64,000 bases of DNA, taken from contig BGKB01000124.1 in NCBI GenBank assembly GCA_003116975.1, forward strand, positions 140,745-204,744. Direction: 5' to 3'. A program made the position numbers and the translations under genes. Source of the stretch: Aurantiochytrium sp. KH105. Lineage: Eukaryota; Sar; Bigyra; Thraustochytrida; Thraustochytriidae. Positions 35,999-55,779 of this stretch are shown here, piece by piece (the stretch's first letter is position 1; each line of letters starts with the position of its first letter). Under the pieces are notes generated by a model. That model worked only from the letters and a program-made list of their open reading frames with translations, had not been told where the DNA came from and searched no databases.

Positions 35999-36594
35999 CT
36001 CGCCGCGTCGCCAGTCCCGCCCGCGCCCAATCAATCAATCAATCAATCAACCAGCGCCCGCGCGCCGCCTGCCCTCGCGACGCCGCACGCCTCGCGCCGC
36101 TGCGGCGACCTGCACGCTCGGGCTCCACGCCGCGCGCCCTTCCGGCATTGCCGTCGACCGAGATCGCGATCGGGGCGTGCGAGTCCGCCTCCCCGCGCCG
36201 CTGCCGCGCACGTTATAGTCCCCGACTAGATCCGACTAGTCGTCGCGCGCAGGATCGCGCCGGGCTTGTTCAAATTCAAAACATCATCATCGACAGCGAC
36301 AACAACAGCAGGAAGGGCGACCGCAGGAACGACGCGGGGGAGGACGACGACAGCGAGCACGAGCGGGGCCGCGGGCGGAGAAGCTCCGGACGCGGGCCTC
36401 GGGGCAGAGCGCGGCCGCCGCTGCCCGGCGCGGCGCGAGCCTTGGTGCCGCTGAGGCGCCGCGACCGCGGGCGAGGAGACGACCTCGCTGCGCAGGCCCG
36501 CGAGAGGAGGAGCGAGGGCGCCGAGGGAGGCCAGGCCCTGGCGGACGCGGGCGCAGACGCGGGAAGCTCGTTGCTGAGGTTGGCGCGCAGCGCG
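35999..36594. promoter_or_regulatory. Divergent intergenic region between Nudix and DIX genes
   Basis: 596 bp, GC-rich, with an (AATC)5 tract at about 36030-36050 and short repeats of CGACAGCGACAACAACAG type near 36290. It should contain both promoters. The plus-strand frame stays open through the last 447 bp without an ATG, giving Arg/Gly-rich translation that I treat as leader. Confidence 0.45.
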
Positions 36595-37608
36595 ATGAGC
36601 TCGACGAGCGTGTATTACTTTGTTCCGGAGGACGGAGATGACGAGGCGCACCCGAACTTTTTCTCGTTGAGCAAGCCGGCGGCCAAGGTCCGCGCCGCAG
36701 ACGTGCGCGCTGCATTTCCTCTGCCGGGGGCCTACCACCTCCGCTTCAAAAAGGCTTTTAAGAACACATATGTGTGGCTGGATGCCGTCGACGACGGTCA
36801 GATTGTGCCACGTTTCGAGGGGCAAATTTTTGCCAAGATCTCGCGGTTATCTGCACAGCATGGCGCGGCAGGAGCGGGTGGCAGCAGGACTGCAGCTGCA
36901 CGCGCAGGCTCTTCAGGCGCAGAAAATCGATCTGCAAGGCCAGTTTCGTCGTCATCGTCATCATCTTCGTCGTCGACTTCTTCTTCGGCGGCAGCAGCAA
37001 GATCAGCACCAGGTTCATCAGCGCCAGCAGGAGGCAACGCAGCCCCTCGACGAGCACGGGCTCCGAGCGGAGGCGGTGCATCCTCGGGCGGGGGAACGCC
37101 TCCTCTGCAGGCCGCTCGGTCAACTCGTATGCCAGAAAAGATGAACAGTGGAGATTTGCTAGGTCTGCATTCATCGGCTGGGACGGCGTCCGGGGCGATC
37201 GCTGCGCCTGTTCCGGTTCGTGGCGGTTCAGCAGGGCAAATGGGCTCCGGAGGATCGTCTTCACCAGTTCCGTCACCAACGCTGGTGAGGCCGGGCTCCG
37301 GCACCGGGTCTGCTGGGGCAGCGGCCGGTGCAAGTTCAGGACTCCGCAAACCCCCGTCCGCTGGCGGGTCCATGTCCTCCTCTTCGGCGGCGGACGCCCT
37401 GCACAAGATGGATCTTGATTGGTCACCCTCAGCCCCGTCACCAACGCCCTCGCCGCCAATGATGCCGACTGGATCGACACCCATGCCCATGAACGGTGCG
37501 CGGTCATCGTCACCGGTGCGTAGGCCCGCGTCACGGAATGGCGCGACCAAAAGTAGTCTTTCCATCCCGAGCGATTTGTCAAGCGCTGCCAAGGACTTTA
37601 AGTTGTGA
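36595..37608 (+). CDS. DIX-domain protein with low-complexity tail
   Basis: 337 residues from the ATG at 36595 (MSSTSVYYFVPED). Residues about 5-86 read as a DIX domain. VYYFVPEDG aligns with the first strand of Axin/Dishevelled DIX, VRAAFPLPGAYHLRFKKAF with the GxYRYYFKK region, and DDGQIVPRFEGQIFAKI with the DDxxVLPxFEGKIxGKV strand. DIX domains polymerise head to tail into dynamic filaments that build signalling condensates (Wnt signalosome) or polarity complexes (plant SOSEKI). The remaining about 250 residues are Ser/Gly/Ala/Pro-rich with no domain, which fits a scaffold that needs partners. No DEP or PDZ domain is visible, so it is not Dishevelled. The function in this organism is unknown. 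Confidence 0.72.
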   Translation: MSSTSVYYFVPEDGDDEAHPNFFSLSKPAAKVRAADVRAAFPLPGAYHLRFKKAFKNTYVWLDAVDDGQIVPRFEGQIFAKISRLSAQHGAAGAGGSRTAAARAGSSGAENRSARPVSSSSSSSSSSTSSSAAAARSAPGSSAPAGGNAAPRRARAPSGGGASSGGGTPPLQAARSTRMPEKMNSGDLLGLHSSAGTASGAIAAPVPVRGGSAGQMGSGGSSSPVPSPTLVRPGSGTGSAGAAAGASSGLRKPPSAGGSMSSSSAADALHKMDLDWSPSAPSPTPSPPMMPTGSTPMPMNGARSSSPVRRPASRNGATKSSLSIPSDLSSAAKDFKL

Positions 37609-45926: not shown

Positions 45927-47825
45927 TTATGCGCCCGTGAGTGCACTGAGCACCAGGCCTACGAACCTGGTACGAGCGTCGGAGCCTGTGCGATCTGAAG
46001 ACGTTGACGCGCACTGAGGCGTACTTGCGCAAAAAAGGCCAGCCTGAAAAGCAACCCGTGTGAGAAGGTCATCGTGATACCGAAGCAAGGACGCATCTTG
46101 CTGCGCATCGATACGCGCCTTGGCAAGATCATCGAGGGCGGCAAACACATTCACAAGCAGCGAACGCTTCTTTGATGTACCGTGCAGAGCGCGCAGCATA
46201 TCGAGTGCTTGATCCTGTTTCTGAACAAGCGCTGCGTCCGAGTGCGCTTGCAGCAATAGAGATTGCAGCGACGGAAAGCAGTCGAGATATTCAGCGCGAG
46301 GCCCTGCGGCAATGACCGCGGCTCCGCCATCAACAGATGCCGCTCGCATAATGTTGTCTGGAGCGTGGCGGAGCAAACAGGTTCGGACCTGGCGCACGCG
46401 CGTCGAGTCTCCGCGCTTGGCCTGCTCCTCAAGCTCAATCAAAGACGGGACGAGCATGAGAGGAGGCTCAACGCCAGGCAGAGGATCTTGGTGCGGGACC
46501 TCAGATACCACCTCGGCGGCATCCCTTGAGGGCCGAGTTTCCTCGCCGTCAAGGACATTTAGATATCCCTCCTCCCAAACGAGCCTGCCGGCCTCGTTCT
46601 CGACGACACACGAATACGTGCCGCTGTCTCGCATCGTTGCACCCCGCACGCGGAGCACACGGTCTGTGGCGCCGGCAACGTTGACACCGTTGAGACGCCA
46701 TTGGAAAGCCGGAGCCGGCTCGCCCTCGGCCTCGAGTTCGAACTCAAAGGTCTCGCCCAGGCTTACAGCGTGGAAGAACGACTTGCTTGAGGCCACGGGG
46801 GCGACCGGAAGGGGACCGGCATTGGCCCATTGGTACGTCGCCCCAGCGATGGCGGCCACGACGGCGAGCACAGCTGCGAGAACGCCAAGAGTGCGGAAAG
46901 AGGTACGGGGACCCGAGGCCGGTGCGTCGGCATGATCATCAAGAGCTGACGCTGCGGCACTGCTGTCGCCATGCGCATGTCGATCAAGATCCTTCTGTTT
47001 CGTGTCGGTGCTGCTGGCGGTTGCAGCGGCGACGCCCATGTCGCACTCTGCGTGTGAAACATTCAGCAGGTCTGTCTTGGTCTTGCTCGCCTTGCTCTTG
47101 GTCTTGCCATTAGTCCTGATCTTGGGGGCGGCACTCTCTTGGGCGTCCTGCTTCGTCAAGGCCGGTGCATTGATATCTGGGATCTTTGCGCGCGCATCTA
47201 TTGCGGCTACATTTTGATCGTGTTGCTGTTGTTGTTGTTGTTGTTGTTGGAAGTGAAGGTGAGTATCCTTCTTGTGGACACGATTGTCGTCAAGGGTCTG
47301 CAGCGGACGCAAGGCGCTTCCATTGGATGCTGGTTGTAGCGCTGCTGCAGTCGATGTCGACGCGGCCCGGCGACCCACGCCGTTGGAGAGCTTGCCTCCT
47401 CGGACGGCCTTGCGGGCGGTCTGACGGCGCAAGTCTGGCGCTACGTTTTCCCGGCGGATGTTTTCTGCATCATGCCCATTTTCGTCCCAAAGCTGAGCCA
47501 TGGCTCCAGCGCCCTGCCGCCTGCCGGGCAACGCGTCTTCGTCGCTGCTGCCGCCGTTAGACGCGAGGCCGTTGGCGTTCGGATGGTGTGAGTTGCCCAG
47601 ACTGATCTCCCCGAGCGGGGCCGACTTGCGCGCCATCGACCGCGTCGTCGCCTGCTGCCTGCGCTGCTGCTGCTGCTGCTGCTGCCGCTGCCGCTGCTGC
47701 TGCTGCTGCCTGCGGCCGCCCAGCTGCGCGTCGCCGCCGCGCTGCTGCGGCTCGTCCTCGTGCTTCACCTCGGTGGTCTCCTGAATCGCGTCCTGGGCCT
47801 GCGCGGCGAGGACGCCCGTCGGCAT
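45927..47825 (-). CDS. Single-pass membrane protein with polyglutamine tracts and an Ig-like domain
   Basis: 632 residues from the ATG at 47825 (MPTGVLAAQAQ). Residues 1-305 are disordered and contain two Gln runs (about 45-65 and 190-205). One hydrophobic span at about 307-332 (LGVLAAVLAVVAAIAGATY) follows, with no signal peptide, suggesting a type II orientation. Immediately after it an I-set-like immunoglobulin domain (about 350-425) shows GEPAPAFQWRLNG (core Trp) and DSGTYSCVVENEAG (the D-x-G-x-Y-x-C motif). The partner cysteine of the usual disulfide is replaced by Leu (FELEAEGEP), so the fold would lack the bridge. The C-terminal 200 residues are helical and unrecognised. Ig-like modules usually mediate adhesion or recognition; the role here is unknown. 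Confidence 0.72.
   Translation of the reverse strand: MPTGVLAAQAQDAIQETTEVKHEDEPQQRGGDAQLGGRRQQQQQRQRQQQQQQQRRQQATTRSMARKSAPLGEISLGNSHHPNANGLASNGGSSDEDALPGRRQGAGAMAQLWDENGHDAENIRRENVAPDLRRQTARKAVRGGKLSNGVGRRAASTSTAAALQPASNGSALRPLQTLDDNRVHKKDTHLHFQQQQQQQQQHDQNVAAIDARAKIPDINAPALTKQDAQESAAPKIRTNGKTKSKASKTKTDLLNVSHAECDMGVAAATASSTDTKQKDLDRHAHGDSSAAASALDDHADAPASGPRTSFRTLGVLAAVLAVVAAIAGATYQWANAGPLPVAPVASSKSFFHAVSLGETFEFELEAEGEPAPAFQWRLNGVNVAGATDRVLRVRGATMRDSGTYSCVVENEAGRLVWEEGYLNVLDGEETRPSRDAAEVVSEVPHQDPLPGVEPPLMLVPSLIELEEQAKRGDSTRVRQVRTCLLRHAPDNIMRAASVDGGAAVIAAGPRAEYLDCFPSLQSLLLQAHSDAALVQKQDQALDMLRALHGTSKKRSLLVNVFAALDDLAKARIDAQQDASLLRYHDDLLTRVAFQAGLFCASTPQCASTSSDRTGSDARTRFVGLVLSALTGA
47222..47250. 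repeat. GTT/CAA trinucleotide run encoding polyglutamine
   Basis: Nine consecutive Gln codons on the minus strand, read mostly as caa, in the Ig-like membrane protein. A second, CAG-type run lies at 47662-47712. Such tracts are length-variable in many protists. Confidence 0.9.
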
Positions 47826-49741
47826 AGCCCCGCGCAGCTGCGGCCGCTCGCGCCGCGCCGCGCCGCGCGCGCTCGCGCCGCTCCGCGCCGCTCCGCGCCG
47901 CTCCGCTCCGCGCCGCGCCGCGCCGCGCTCGAGGTTCTGCGCCGCCGGGACCGGGTCGCGGCGCCCAACCACCTCGATCTGCGCGATCTCAACCCCCCGT
48001 AACGCACCCGCGGCCTCGGCTCGGGCCGCCTCGCTCGCCCGCGCGGGCTCGCGGCGGGCGCGCGGCGGGGGCGGCGGGCGCGCGGCGCGCCTGCGCTCGC
48101 GGGTCTGCTCGCGCGCGCGCGCGGGTCTGTCGCGGCCGCCTCGATGGATGATCGATCTGCTGCGCGATGCGGCGGGATGAAGATAAGACGGAGAAGGCCC
48201 AGCCTGCGGCCCGGGCCGCTCGCGCGGAGGCCGGGGCCCGCCTCGCGAGGCGTGGCGCGGCGCGGCGCGGCGTGGCGCGGCGCGGCGAGGCGTGGCGAGG
48301 CGAGGCGAGGCGTGGCGTGGCGTCGCGTCTGTGCGGGCAGCTATGATTTTGAGGCGCGAACGATTGATTGCCTGGGACGCGCCCCCGCGCCGCCCACTGC
48401 GCAGCGGCCCCCCTGGCCGCCGCCGCTGTTGCGCCGTTCGCCGGCCAACAGTCGCGTCGCGCACCCCAGCTTCCACTGCCGCCGTTCAAGTCGGGGTTTG
48501 GCTAGTGAGGAACCGTCGCAAGATCTGGGGAATAGATGTCTGGCTCGACTAAAACACACTGGGACGGAATCAAGGGGGGGAGAGGAGGGTTTGAAGACGC
48601 AGGGGAAGGCCGCTCAACTCAGCCTCCACTGGAACACTTTTGCTAACGGTCAAAGTTCCCCTTTTTTTTCTTTTTTTTTTTGGACCTTTTTGGGACGAAT
48701 TACAGCTGCGACGACGACGTGCCACTGCTGGTGCTGGGGCTGCTTTGGTCGCGAGAAAGCAACCTCGCGGGGCCGCGGGCAGGTCAAGATCGGGCTCTGA
48801 AGAGCCCATTTGGCTGATGTGTGCTGTATACCTTGCCGGCGACAGTCTGCAAGACCCGTAGGGTCAATGTCGTCTACGAGCAGAATGACTCCGACTGTTG
48901 GGCCTGACAGAGACGCTAACGTTCGAAAACGCATTGCTCAGCGACAGTGCATAGCCTACTTGCCGTAGTGGCAGGCCACCCACCTCGCAGCGCCACTGCC
49001 AGGATGCAGTACACTCGGGGCCTTTGTTGGAAGCCTGCGGACATGGTGACCGCAATGGTGAACCATGGCCTTTTCTTTGGATCGCCGCCTCTGGACACCC
49101 TCATGATCGATATGGTTCGTACTTGCGTGCTCGACAAGCATTGCTTGGCAAGCTGAGCAGTGATGGATGCACGTGTAATAAGGCTCTCCTTTGAAACGAC
49201 AAACAAGTCATTGACGCGTCAACTAGCCGGAGGGAAATAGCAACGGTGGGACAGTTGCACGTTTGCTTTGAGTCAGCTTCTAGCGGCATCTGCGTGTCAC
49301 TATCAACGCTGCTGCTGCAGAAAGAAAAAGATCAAGCTCGTCAATATTCGCATTCTCCTTTGAGTGTGCAACGTGCCCAGCATGGCATATGCCCAACACG
49401 GCATATATGCGCAAAGGCAAATGTGTTAGATCTCGGCGATGAAACAAACGAAGTGCTTGCCTGCGCGCCATCGCATAGCGCCTTTGGTTTCGCTCATAGA
49501 GCTGCTACCGAAAAATAAGAGCAAGGTCAGTATTCACATGCCTAGATGCAATAAGACGATTTCATGCTCAATGTCTAAGTGAGCTAGTGACGCGCGCAAT
49601 GAGTACAATCGAAACCAGCAAATGAAGTGTTTGCTGGCACAGTAGCGCCCATGAATACGTTTTACTGAATTATTTGCGCGGCTGCAAGAAAAACAAACAA
49701 AAGAAAAACCCATTCGTAGCTTGCCAAGTGCATGTGTGACT
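47826..49741. other. Intergenic region 5' of the Ig-like gene and 3' of the acid phosphatase
   Basis: 1.9 kb without a supported gene. The first 500 bp are extremely GC-rich with pentamer arrays (gcgccgctccgc near 47870-47935, and ggcgt/ggcgc/ggcga units at 48240-48330) that create spurious open frames. From about 48640 it contains T-runs (up to 11 T near 48670-48680) and then mixed-composition DNA. The minus-strand promoter of the Ig-like gene must be at its left end and the 3' flank of the phosphatase at its right end. Confidence 0.5.
48238..48330. repeat. GGCGN pentamer array
   Basis: About 16 copies of ggcgt, ggcgc or ggcga in tandem, 400-500 bp 5' of the Ig-like gene start. The fifth base varies while the first four are nearly invariant. 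It is flanked by another pentamer patch at 47870-47935. Confidence 0.9.
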
Positions 49742-51352: not shown

Positions 51353-54300
51353 TTATCTGGCAGCTCTGATGCGCTCAATGAGCTCCTTGTAGAAGGCCTC
51401 TGCCAGGTACCGGCGACGCTGGAAAGGCATGGACTCTTTCTCCTTGAATAGATGCTTGGCCGATGCCGGAGCAGCGTCAATGTATGCGGAGAAATAGGCA
51501 AACCCAGGACGATTCGGGTCACTCTCGTGCACAACCAAGATAGGTTTCTCCTCTTGCAATGCCGTCTCCAGCTCCATGATCACCGCGCCCTTGAACACAG
51601 TCTTGGATAGGAAAAGGACATAGCACTTGGACTCTCGAATGCCTTGCTTCATTTCATCTTCTGCGAGGTTGCCCTCGGCCTCCTGGTCAATCCAGACACG
51701 AAGTCCACGGTTCTGAAGCTTGTCCGCCATGAGATTGCAAGCATCGCCTGCGTCATACTGGCGATGACTCAAAAAGACGTGGTACTTGAGCCCAGCAGCA
51801 AGCGGAATATTCGCCTGCTCCACGGTCCCCGTGTCCTTTTCATCTTCGGTCAGCGAACCATCCTCGAAGAAGGCGTCAAAGTCGGCGACAGAAGCATTGG
51901 TCATGCCGACTGACGCAACCACACGAGACTTTGCCTCGCGAGACTTGACCAACGCATCGTACTTGACTTGTGCCAATGGGTCGCGAGGTGACTGCAAAAG
52001 CAGTTGCCAGGGCAGATCCTTGAAAACAGCGTCGCGAGCTCCGAGGAACATGCTAATGAGCGTCTTGATCGTGCTAGCCGGGCTCTCAGTTTCTGGAACC
52101 ATGATAAGTCGGATCTGGTTGTCTTTTTCCTCCAGCGCAAACATCGACAAATCAAATCGGATGACGGCTTGGTGTCCTGCGAGACGCGGTGCACCCGAAC
52201 GTGTGCTCAGGTCGCCGCTGTGCTTGGCACAAAGCGAGAGAAGACGTGCAAAGACACCATCGGGAAGAAAGAACTCGGAAAAGTCCAACACGCATGTCAA
52301 CCCACTCTGAATACTCGCAATGTCTTGTTCGAGTTTGCGGTCCGTTGAGTTCTTGAGCAGACTGCTCACCAAGAAAAGCGTCTCGTCTTGGCGGCCACTC
52401 GTCAGCGCCTCTTCTGGAAACGCCCAGTCTGACATCAGCATCGTCTCGTGCATAAACTCCCGCAGGTAGTCGACTTCTTCGTTCTTCCACAGAAACTTCA
52501 GCAGACTGAGCGTGGCGATGCCGCGTTTGCGCAGCACCGCAAAGTCTTTCTTGAGACCGGCATTCTGCAGTTCGCGATCGTATCGCATCTGCTTGACGTG
52601 AATCTTGTCCGCAATCACGCGTGAAAGCTTGTCCAGGAGCCACTGCGGATTCAGAACGACCTTGTCGTGCAAGGTGTCTGTCGCGCGGAGATGGACGAGC
52701 ATGCCGAGCTCGTGGAAAAAGCTCAGGAGCTCGTCGGTCTGATCACCGGCGTGGTACTTGGTCGCGAGCTCTTGCACTGTATCAAAAGGCACATAATCGC
52801 AGTCCAGCTTCAGCAGGTCGTCCAGCACCTTGAGCCACCGCAACGAGATCTTCCGCGAGACGGCCTCGAGCGACGACGCGCTTGCTTCGACCGCAGCCCT
52901 TAACTCTGAGGCATGGCCCGGCGCGCGGCTCATGTTGTCGATAGGGAAGAAGCTCAGACTTTTTGCAGAGTTTGGGACAATGTTTTCATTTGCGTCAACC
53001 GACAGATTCTCGACGAGGATGTCCTCAACCTCGTTGACGTCAACTGACGCCTCGTCATAGTGTGTGCCCACCAGCATGATGGGTGCATTTGACGCATGCA
53101 GCTTGATCGAATTGAGCCAAAAGGAAAGATACTCCACGGCTTTCTCTTGCTTGATGAGGAGTTCTTGCATGTCGAAGACGACCATGAAGACGCCGCCCTC
53201 GCGCGTGAGGAAAATGTGGTGCAGCGCGTAAAAGACGTCCTGACCCGCATAGTCCCAGATCGTAAAGATGATCTTCTGGCCCGACTGCGTCTTGCCGGCC
53301 ATGTTCCTGATCTCCGCCATGTCGAATCGTCGCGCCACCTCGGCCTCTGGCACCAGTTCCACCTGCACCTCTGCCGCGAAAGGCCGCGCGGCAGAAGAAC
53401 GTCGGCGTCCAAAGACGACATTTGAAATGCCTTGGGAGACGCGCTTGGGCAGCGATTGCCGCTTCTTGCTTCTGGGTCGCTCCGCTTGCGCGGCCATGCG
53501 CAGCGCCGCCACGCGGTACGCCTGGCGTTCAAACCCACTGTCGAATTCCTCTTCCCGCCACGACTCTGCATCGGTGCGCTTGAGCTCGACGCCCACCGTC
53601 GAGAGGTGCTCCGCCACGGGCGGCATGCCCAGCAGCGAGCGCACCGTGGACGTCTTGCCGGCGGCGCCCTGGCCGACGACCATGAGCTTGCAGCGGCCCA
53701 GCTCCGCGGGGTCCCCGTTCGCCAGCGCCGCCTGGAGCGCCTCCTTCGCCGCCGCAGTCGTCGCGGGGCCGCCGAGCACCTCCTCGATGGGCCGCACGGC
53801 CTCCGTGCCGTCCAGCACGCGCGTCGAGGCGCCCGTCTCCGCGTCCCAGATGCGCACGCTGCTGTCCGAAGATCCGCTCACGATCTCCGACCCCAAGAGA
53901 GAGACCGACTTCACCCAGTTCGAGTGTCCTTGCAAGACGTGCAGCGCGTCTCCGGTGCGCGCGTCCCAGAGTCTGACCGTGTTGTCCTCGGACCCGCTCA
54001 CGATGCGGTCTCCCTCGAGCGCGACAGAGGTCACCCAGTTGGTGTGTCCTTCGAGGACGCGGACGAGCTGGAAGGAAGGCACGGCGTAGACCCTCACCTT
54101 GTTGTCGCGGGACCCGCTCACCATGCGCTGCGCGTCGATCGCGACCGCGTAGACCTGGCCTGTCGCCTCCGTGAGGACGTGGCGTGGGCCGCCGCTGGCC
54201 CGGTCGAAGACGCGCACGGTGTTGTTGCGCAACCCGGCCACGAGCAGGTTCTCGTGGGCGGCAACGCTCCAGACGAACGCCCCGGCGTCGATCCTCAAGG

Positions 54301-54661
54301 TCTCTCGGCCGCTGATCTTGTCCCAGACGCGGACGGTCTGGTCGTTGTACCCGCCGGAGATGATCTCGTTGCCGTCGAAGATGACGCTCAAGACAATGCC
54401 GGTGTGGCCCTGGAGGGCGTGCAGGACGGAGGCGGTGGCCAGGTCGATCAGGAAGAGGCCGCCTTCGAGAGTCCCCACGGCGGCGAGGTTGCCCTGCACG
54501 GCCACTGTCCAGGCTGCCTTGTTGTTGGGCGTCTTCATCTCCAAGACGAGGGCGCCGTCCTTCTTGCTCCATGCTCGCAAGGCGCAGTCGGTGTAGCTGG
54601 CGGCCAGCACGAGGTCGGCGGACTGCGCGACGCCGAGCACCTCGCCTTGGATGCGGCCCAT
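51353..54661 (-). CDS. WD40-Roc-COR-TIR multidomain protein (ROCO/NLR-like)
   Basis: 1102 residues from the ATG at 54661 (MGRIQGEVLG); upstream open frame is proline-rich leader. A seven-blade WD40 propeller fills about 1-300 (IVSGSEDNTVRLWDARTG is typical). A Roc GTPase follows: P-loop GQGAAGKT at about 328, switch II IWDYAGQD at about 466, and specificity motif GTHYDE at about 530 in place of NKxD. A COR-like region runs about 590-900 (VVLNPQWLLDKLSRVI is its hallmark). A TIR domain spans about 955-1095: KYHVFLSHRQYD, then RGLRVWIDQ, then FKGAVIMELETALQ, whose Glu aligns with the NADase glutamate of SARM1-type TIRs. The plan is sensor-switch-effector, as in innate immune receptors, so a cell-death or defence role is plausible but inferred. 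A decayed WD40 paralogue lies about 1 kb upstream. Confidence 0.88.
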   Translation of the reverse strand: MGRIQGEVLGVAQSADLVLAASYTDCALRAWSKKDGALVLEMKTPNNKAAWTVAVQGNLAAVGTLEGGLFLIDLATASVLHALQGHTGIVLSVIFDGNEIISGGYNDQTVRVWDKISGRETLRIDAGAFVWSVAAHENLLVAGLRNNTVRVFDRASGGPRHVLTEATGQVYAVAIDAQRMVSGSRDNKVRVYAVPSFQLVRVLEGHTNWVTSVALEGDRIVSGSEDNTVRLWDARTGDALHVLQGHSNWVKSVSLLGSEIVSGSSDSSVRIWDAETGASTRVLDGTEAVRPIEEVLGGPATTAAAKEALQAALANGDPAELGRCKLMVVGQGAAGKTSTVRSLLGMPPVAEHLSTVGVELKRTDAESWREEEFDSGFERQAYRVAALRMAAQAERPRSKKRQSLPKRVSQGISNVVFGRRRSSAARPFAAEVQVELVPEAEVARRFDMAEIRNMAGKTQSGQKIIFTIWDYAGQDVFYALHHIFLTREGGVFMVVFDMQELLIKQEKAVEYLSFWLNSIKLHASNAPIMLVGTHYDEASVDVNEVEDILVENLSVDANENIVPNSAKSLSFFPIDNMSRAPGHASELRAAVEASASSLEAVSRKISLRWLKVLDDLLKLDCDYVPFDTVQELATKYHAGDQTDELLSFFHELGMLVHLRATDTLHDKVVLNPQWLLDKLSRVIADKIHVKQMRYDRELQNAGLKKDFAVLRKRGIATLSLLKFLWKNEEVDYLREFMHETMLMSDWAFPEEALTSGRQDETLFLVSSLLKNSTDRKLEQDIASIQSGLTCVLDFSEFFLPDGVFARLLSLCAKHSGDLSTRSGAPRLAGHQAVIRFDLSMFALEEKDNQIRLIMVPETESPASTIKTLISMFLGARDAVFKDLPWQLLLQSPRDPLAQVKYDALVKSREAKSRVVASVGMTNASVADFDAFFEDGSLTEDEKDTGTVEQANIPLAAGLKYHVFLSHRQYDAGDACNLMADKLQNRGLRVWIDQEAEGNLAEDEMKQGIRESKCYVLFLSKTVFKGAVIMELETALQEEKPILVVHESDPNRPGFAYFSAYIDAAPASAKHLFKEKESMPFQRRRYLAEAFYKELIERIRAAR

Positions 54662-55629
54662 GGCGGCGGCGAGGGGAGCGAGCGCGGGCGGGCGGGCTGG
54701 CGGGCAAGCGACGCGAAGAGGCGGCGCGAGCGAGCGGGTGGGGCGGAGAGGGAGCACGACACCAGAGAGAGAGAGAAGACTCGGGCGAGGGAAGGGAAAG
54801 GAAATAGGGGCGCGAGGGGAGAGCCTGGCTTGGCTGGCTGCTGATGCGATGATGCGGCCTTGGCGCGTTCTCCGCGGAGGCGCGCGCGGACGGAGCGTGT
54901 CGCGCGGAGAACGAGGGGGGGAGGGGGGGGGAGGGGAGCTAGGGGGTTGCTGGCTTGCGCCTTGCGGGTCTGCCTGCCTGCCTACCACGCGGTCGCGAGG
55001 GCGAACAGAGAGGGGGAGGGGAGGTGTTAGGTGTTTGGGCAAAGGCCGAGCGTGTGCACACGCTGGCACGCGCGGACGGTGCACACGCGCTGTGCTGGCT
55101 CAGGCTTGCCTGGCCTGGAGGAGACCGCAGTCTGCGAACCGTCAATGGTCATCAACGCGGCCAGTGCTGCAAGCGAACATATGTGCGATGTTGGAGATGC
55201 CAAAACAATAATCCCACGCTTGACATGAACGAAAAATAAAACGTTTATGGCACGTTTTCTGAACGAAGGCTGGTGAAAACGACTCGTATGTGAGCGGAAA
55301 GGAGCATGCATGTCTCCCTGTGCTATAATTGACATTTTCATACCAACACGATTGCACGTGTCTACTGCATTTCTTCGTTGAGATCAGCTTGTCGAAGCAG
55401 CTAGGGATTTCACCACGGACACAAAATGAATTGCTTGACATAAATCTTTGTGACTTTGCCACAAGCATGCCAAGTTTGAGAGGAAAGCTTATCGCTCTCT
55501 TTTCCTCTGTTCCGAAGATTACAAAGTTGAACAAGCAGGGCACAGCTTTGCAGTGCGGGGGGTCGTCGTCATCTATCCGTGCAGTCTTGAGATCTGCTTT
55601 AACTTTCCCTGGCGATCCAAGTTCTTTTT
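54662..55629. promoter_or_regulatory. Upstream region of the WD40-Roc-COR-TIR gene
   Basis: About 970 bp. The first 400 bp are strongly strand-asymmetric: G- and GA-rich on the plus strand (gggggggaggggggggg near 54915-54930), so C/T-rich on the sense strand of the gene, as often seen in leaders. Beyond 55140 the DNA becomes AT-richer and leads into the WD40 remnant. No other gene seen. Confidence 0.4.
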
Positions 55630-55765
55630 CTTTGATGGGACGCACGGCCTTCGTGCAGTCCAGCACGCGCATCAATGCGCCCGTCTCCGCGTCCCACAAA
55701 CGCACAGTGTTGTTGTTAACTCCGCTCACGATCTCGGACCCGATGAGAGAGACCGATTTTACCCG
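55630..55765 (-). pseudogene. Decayed WD40-repeat fragment of a paralogue of the WD40-Roc-COR-TIR gene
   Basis: On the minus strand this reads VKSVSLIGSEIVSGVNNNTV, then RLWDAETGALMRVLDCTKAV and RPIKE. It parallels the last blade and linker of the intact gene (VKSVSLLGSEIVSGSSDSSV, then RIWDAETGASTRVLDGTEAV and RPIEE). Nucleotide similarity covers about 135 bp (intact copy near 53790-53925) and stops abruptly near 55765. Downstream codons (GSPGKVKADLKTARIDDDDP) may still echo the intact linker before similarity fades. NNNTVRLWD is closer to another blade of the intact protein, so the source was probably a separate family member rather than a fresh copy. No P-loop, COR or TIR part remains. Confidence 0.75.
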
Positions 55766-55779
55766 TCTGGCTGTCACGC

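Follow-up and report, generated by a model that had tools for sequence, protein, structure and literature searches.

Plants, animals and fungi are known to possess large repertoires of hypervariable receptors. The gene described here may belong to a further repertoire of this kind. It lies on the minus strand at positions 51353..54661 of a 64,000-nucleotide stretch of the genome of the thraustochytrid Aurantiochytrium sp. KH105 (contig BGKB01000124.1, positions 140,745 to 204,744; hereafter the window), and it encodes a protein with WD40, Roc, COR and TIR domains.

The fungal NWD genes, with HET-E and HET-D, are close described counterparts: in the portions of the reports available they likewise combine a WD40 sensor, paired hypervariable codons on the top face, a uniform framework and a multi-gene family (PMC1805685, PMC12222747). 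In Podospora anserina, repeat codons 7, 9, 25 and 27 diversify, the constrained codons 8 and 26 lie between them, and the diversified residues map to the top of a modelled propeller (PMC1805685, portion available). HET-E and HET-D differ from the present gene in their NACHT switch, their N-terminal effector and their near-identical WD repeats exchanged as units, whereas here the switch is Roc-COR and the C-terminus is a TIR. A second parallel is offered by the candidate immune receptors of brown algae with leucine-rich repeats (LRR-ROCOs), which share a ROC-COR switch and a diversifying repeat sensor whose presumed binding face carries sites under positive selection (PMC11378527), but which have the repeats in shuffled exons and a simple plan instead of a WD40 domain and a TIR in one open reading frame (ORF). 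According to the accessible part of the same source, several other SAR species have no more than four ROCOs each, and the red alga Chondrus crispus has a protein with the same repeat-ROCO-TIR order, with tetratricopeptide repeats where WD40 is found here (PMC11378527); no repertoire of this protein is mentioned there. LRRK2 and the bacterial Roco proteins have the Roc in common with the present protein, which carries no kinase and has a TIR instead.

We report that the window gene belongs, with a probability of about 0.65 as judged from sequence comparison, to a large and probably intracellular NLR-like (nucleotide-binding, leucine-rich repeat receptor-like) recognition family with a diversified repertoire.

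Results

A single ORF for WD40, Roc, COR and TIR

The gene consists of a single ORF (54661..51353, minus strand) of 1102 amino acids without internal stops, starting with MGRIQ. The frame remains open 5' of this start as far as 55084. An MGRI-like start was found at the matching place in most intact copies of the family described below; as it is unclear in some of them (L016 and L035), MGRIQ is likely, short of proven, to be the start of the window gene.

Pfam detected the four domains in the order proposed in the initial annotation, WD40 (2.6e-29), Roc (5.8e-19), COR-A (5.7e-13) and TIR_2 (1.1e-13), thus confirming both the architecture and the COR-like region. With the Roc-COR-TIR half alone as query, Roc (3.5e-19) and COR-A (2.9e-13) were detected again. 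COR-B was not found at E≤1 in this half, and in two WD40-less relatives (L041 and L042) it reached 0.003, below the cut-off. Neither NACHT nor NB-ARC was among the eight Pfam families detected at E≤1 in the same half, where AAA_22 scored 0.041, also below the cut-off.

The WD40 propeller occupies residues 1-295 (53777..54661). The seven blades of the initial annotation follow from our own reading and from the variable columns, which return every ~40 residues in 33 copies, rather than from a structure, and the Pfam model sees four repeats. The blades of the window protein are 10-60% identical to each other, so the highly identical repeats of the HET-E type are absent and it is unlikely that the diversity here arises by swapping repeats along the array.

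A large gene family

Relatives were counted in the assembly that contains the window (367 contigs with a total of 76.03 Mb, eukaryotic gene types), in which the window gene is on the contig labelled C124. The best 150 of 381 candidates for the Roc profile include ordinary small GTPases, and the best 150 of 258 for the TIR_2 profile include other TIR genes; with the window protein as query, 42 of 622 candidates were scored, and the 43 matches listed were 69-100% identical to it. From the Roc matches listed, 78 places, the window's included, were picked as possible relatives. DNA patterns for WD40 blade 5 and for the TIR end flank 53 of these 78 in the expected order, strand and distance, whereas nine have the TIR-end pattern alone and 16 have neither; the assembly thus holds at least 53 places with all three markers, and the 62 places with a TIR marker are spread over 51 contigs. 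The whole assembly contains 68 matches to the blade-5 pattern and 77 to the TIR-end pattern, and the reversed controls gave none.

Forty of the 78 places were read (loci read from the assembly are labelled L001 to L045). All 40 match most of the window protein, at about 63-91% identity in the best stretch. Thirty-two of them are single ORFs judged intact by our criterion, and these together with the window gene make up the 33 sequences compared below, whereas the other eight are partial, frame-shifted or internally deleted. Because many GTPases come as equal-scoring pairs, the assembly seems to hold both haplotypes, and a haploid set may therefore contain about half as many loci as the family count. 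For 15 of the 68 blade-5 places and 15 of the 77 TIR-end places, the chosen list contains no Roc match to pair with; these could be relics, WD40-only genes or silent donor cassettes. One intact copy (L010) has an insertion before the TIR in which the acidic linker motif is repeated.

The predicted top face of the propeller is hypervariable

A published rule assigns three top-face contact residues to each WD40 blade, R1-2, R1 and D-1 (PMC3419727, portion available). Applied by eye, with A instead of V, L or I before R1 in blade 2, the rule yielded 21 residues; the top face is in this sense that of a sequence rule and not of a structure, and some circularity attaches to it, the variable positions having been seen before the rule was read. 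Three near-duplicates (L002, L007 and L012) were left out of the entropy, linkage, pN/pS, nearest-relative, between-codon, closest-pair and simulation analyses, giving 30 sequences, while all 33 were used for motif, domain pN/pS, four-fold, face-string and pair-distribution counts.

All 21 contact residues fall within the 30 most variable of the 290 WD40 positions (hypergeometric p 3e-25), and their mean entropy is 2.92 against 0.51. In the 435 pairs of 30 sequences, the median proportions of nonsynonymous (pN) and synonymous (pS) differences were 0.613 and 0.333 at the contact residues, 0.084 and 0.115 in the rest of the WD40 (the framework), and 0.204 and 0.679 in residues 561-1099. When the contact set was shifted in twelve ways, by -6 to +10 codons (+2 and -2 not among them), pN dropped to 0.04-0.19.

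A second set of 28 hypervariable positions was picked by variability, so that its pN/pS is inflated and the 21-position result is the fairer one. At these 28 residues, 31 distinct strings are found among the 33 copies. Of the 528 pairs, 525 differ at 50% or more of the hypervariable residues and three at less than 10%, with no pair at 10-50%. Between the window gene and L032, for instance, 9 of 780 framework bases and 46 of 84 hypervariable bases differ, and in the 30 closest pairs the hypervariable codons with 0, 1, 2 and 3 base changes number 156, 237, 313 and 134. The codons lying between paired hypervariable ones (8, 50, 90, 130, 170, 210 and 250) are represented by one codon in 25-29 of the 30 copies, with the exception of codon 26, between hypervariable codons 24 and 27, which varies. 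The pattern thus predicted, a hypervariable top face on a little-varied framework, is that of the HET-E type.

WD40 cassettes appear to have moved between signalling halves

Four-fold silent divergence, taken in blocks of 20 codons, is 0.07-0.24 over codons 1-360 and 0.34-0.63 over codons 521-1100, and in 29 of the 30 copies the closest relative differs according to whether the WD40 framework or COR-TIR is compared. WD40 cassettes thus appear, from these comparisons, to have been transferred to diverged signalling halves through ectopic conversion or recombination. The unit exchanged may extend from the 5' region up to and including the P-loop, the 5' region being included because about 400 bases upstream of the start are common to many copies.

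The haplotype partner of the window contig, C137, is collinear with C124 at three anchors (offsets 522, 1339 and 1297), with 95% identity in the downstream flank and 84% in the upstream one. The partner has another residue than the window gene at 24 of the 28 hypervariable positions, while pN in the TIR is 0.013. The face is also changed in two other pairs with matching flanks, L010/L034 (22 of 27 residues) and L025/L038 (21 of 28), and in L004/L014 (20 of 28), whose downstream flank matches in part. As matching-flank pairs go both ways (see Discussion), faces can be kept as well as changed.

Source of the face diversity

Selection plus cassette exchange is taken as the default source of the diversity. 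Shuffling of whole blades from a small pool was rejected as the main source because there are 26-31 distinct strings per blade among the 33 copies, and because neighbouring hypervariable codons are shared nearly independently (mean r 0.034, joint sharing 1.22 times the expectation; variable framework codons at equal distance give r 0.21). Old diversity followed by conversion of the framework is difficult to reconcile with the near-uniform codons that separate the paired hypervariable ones, although codon 26 is variable and four-fold divergence is 0.14-0.17 at 1-3 codons from hypervariable positions, somewhat above the 0.06-0.09 at 7-11 codons.

A dedicated process could also rewrite the top-face codons in bulk and with single-codon precision, with an outcome like that of diversity-generating retroelements or antigen-receptor diversification; the analogue would be the retroelements, which are known from prokaryotes and phages (PMC7159879, portion available). 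Such a process is pointed to because cassettes with a framework divergence of only 1-2% have changes at most of their hypervariable codons, because the codons in between are so uniform, and because pairs of copies are either nearly identical or mostly different. We nevertheless consider it quite unlikely. Two pairs have an unchanged face despite silent divergence of the framework, and therefore speak against constitutive hypermutation. The observed third-base heterozygosity was 0.40, as compared with ~0.67 in a selection-only simulation without codon preference, 0.49-0.60 with the codon preference of the Roc-COR-TIR half and 0.30-0.39 with that of the WD40 framework, so this test lends no support to targeted mutation once codon preference is included.

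Conservation of the Roc switch and of the TIR

The Roc GTPase (residues 326-600; 52862..53686) contains the P-loop GQGAAGKT (330-337), the WDYAGQ switch (469-474) and THYD (533-536), and is followed by the COR region (residues 601-860; 52082..52861), in which Pfam places COR-A at 608-750; the outer limits of both were set by us. The intact P-loop and DxAGQ switch of the initial annotation are not only present but conserved across the 33 copies: the AAGKTS of residues 333-338 never varies, and position 332 is G in 28, A in four and C in one; in the switch, W469, D470, A472, G473 and Q474 are the same in all copies, with Y in 32 and F in one at 471. The G4 motif is T/S-H-Y/F-D in all 33. THYD had been taken for a departure from NKxD that raised a question of nucleotide specificity, which loses its force because THxD is common to LRRK2: the GTHLD of the LRRK2 Roc aligns with the GTHYD of the family. 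The window Roc-COR also matches the PDB Roc/Roco structures 4wnr, 3dpu and 6hlu. Median pN divided by median pS was 0.41 for Roc, 0.29 for COR and 0.26 for TIR, consistent with constraint on the switch and on the TIR.

In the TIR domain (residues 956-1102, TIR_2 at 962-1063; 51356..51796), residues V962, S965, H966, W990, D992, M1004, I1008, E1030 and A1034 are invariant in the 33 copies. E1030 (codon 51572..51574) is the first Glu of MELETAL and is kept also in two aligned WD40-less relatives; the second, E1032, is E in 20 of the 33. As a single query, the window TIR gave a weak best match (0.0012) whose alignment stopped before the Glu. A profile built from 13 family TIRs matched 7uwg (1.7e-9; 'Molecular chaperone Tir', a stretch shared with 8g83) and 8g83 (AbTIR, 3.5e-9), and also Cat1, 3h16 (which we take to be PdTIR), the plant resistance proteins RUN1 and Roq1, tir-1 and, more weakly, SARM1 (0.0037); AbTIR, tir-1 and SARM1 are NAD+ hydrolases. 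In this alignment E1030 falls on the Glu of AbTIR and of 3h16, presumably the catalytic one of TIR NADases. The assignment of the MELETAL Glu to the NADase position therefore stands for its first Glu, aligned with that of AbTIR, but does not extend to the Trp that AbTIR and 3h16 have at Glu-4. From this pattern, the TIR is likely an NADase.

Relatives in the same genome

The initial annotation also considered a stand-alone receptor, which was wrong in that the gene is one of a large family with further relatives in the genome. L041 and L042 are Roc-COR-TIR genes, 33-34% identical to the corresponding half of the window protein, with no WD40 match in the ORF read. L043, read in part, joins a TIR to an NPHP3_N/NACHT-like NTPase (NPHP3_N 1.1e-16, NACHT itself below the cut-off). 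A WD40-only ORF of 341 amino acids (L044:938-1963; C26:114800-117500) consists of a cassette of the same family with a face of its own and ends in CPTCSIL, which to our eye resembles a prenylation CaaX box; its product could possibly be a membrane-anchored partner or decoy. Decayed tail DNA like that of L044 is found in L001, L002 and L035 and near the window gene, 5' of which a fragment of such a relative (55461..55777, minus strand) retains the last blade and, in another frame, the tail AKLCPACSTL. The assembly has in addition many TIR ORFs of varied length, which would make up a broad TIR repertoire.

Outside the assembly, no homologues were found in genome-contig and viral-contig collections by a short-peptide-pattern search, which could miss distant prokaryotic Roc-COR-TIR proteins, or in plasmid and phage collections by tblastn, other eukaryote genomes being outside the search. 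PADLOC returned three weak TIR-type matches only.

Discussion

The sequences show an architecture shared by tens of copies, with conserved GTPase motifs and TIR Glu, a diversified face and mobile cassettes. The initial annotation proposed that the WD40 senses, the Roc-COR switches and the TIR executes; this fits the domains, and the hypervariable face favours its first part, whereas NADase activity and cell death are what we infer for the last. In such a receptor, the top face of each copy would bind a different foreign or modified protein, and binding would relieve the autoinhibition of Roc-COR and alter its nucleotide state and oligomerisation. This change would bring TIRs together, and the clustered TIRs could hydrolyse or cyclise NAD+, leading to cell death or another response. 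Selection would keep the top-face residues diverse while cassettes move between signalling halves. The targets may be proteins of pathogens or non-self variants within the species itself.

Several observations weigh against this recognition model. Although the contact residues make up 13 of the 21, 16 of the 30 and 17 of the 40 most variable positions of the whole protein, 10 of those top 30 lie outside the WD40 and 20 within it. Selection was gauged by pairwise counts and not by a recombination-aware site model. Some matching-flank pairs keep their face, L001/L002 (0 of 27 residues different), L003/L007 (0 of 28) and L009/L012 (2 of 28), the last with a pS of 0.28 in Roc and 0.50 in COR versus 0.03 in the WD40 framework. 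Hypervariability as such is also compatible with mate or clone recognition, or with a non-immune role, and the Trp at Glu-4 is absent in all 33 copies (A in 23, E in three, R in two, K in two, N, T and D in one each).

This last point also bears on whether the TIR is rather a scaffold or adaptor that recruits other TIR proteins, which are numerous in the genome (among the best 150 of 258 TIR_2 candidates); we hold this for possible, with the odds somewhat against it. The invariance of E1030, also in the WD40-less relatives, and of S965, H966, W990 and D992 speaks against it. The function could also be allorecognition instead of pathogen defence, with WD40 faces that recognise polymorphic self after cell fusion and trigger death, as in fungal HET-E/HET-D. 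Comparable WD40 positions diversify in the NWD genes of P. anserina (PMC1805685, portion available) and haplotype partners in one assembly bear different faces here, but if both haplotypes share a cell each must tolerate the other, and P. anserina is reported to have 10 genes, fewer than the family here; we consider this alternative rather unlikely. Very improbable, in our judgement, is an ordinary lineage-specific family with relaxed constraint on loop residues and no recognition repertoire. The top-face residues do lie at loop or bulge positions that may tolerate change, and in no more than 173 of the 435 pairs is their pN above the pS of residues 561-1099; it exceeds the framework pS in all 435, beyond what relaxed constraint alone would give, and the contact positions are rich in N, Y, R, W, E, S, G and D.

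The recognition family is best read as convergent with fungal HET-E receptors and brown algal ROCOs. No WD40-Roc-COR-TIR repertoire was found described in the titles and abstract openings searched, most subscription papers being outside that scope; hypervariable NLR-like repertoires as such are known, and what would be new is one built on ROCO-TIR. If so, another eukaryote, probably single-celled, has assembled a repertoire with a GTPase as its switch, a propeller as its sensor and a TIR as its executor, and LRRK2-type GTPases would be tied to TIR signalling. The family would then be suited to studying what is recognised by such repertoires, how the face of a WD40 domain diversifies so sharply on a fixed scaffold, and whether Roc-COR can replace NACHT or NB-ARC as an immune switch.

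Other genes of the window and the assembly

Two further ORFs of the window were noted, one at 36148-37608 with a DIX domain (8.4e-9), a domain known mainly from animal Wnt signalling, and one at 45927-48476 with an immunoglobulin-like domain (Ig_3, 2.3e-9). Elsewhere in the assembly, L045 (C72:311448-314582) encodes a PfaA-like polyunsaturated fatty acid/polyketide synthase that scored 930 bits, below the model cut-off of 1010, and a near-equal match is present on C155.

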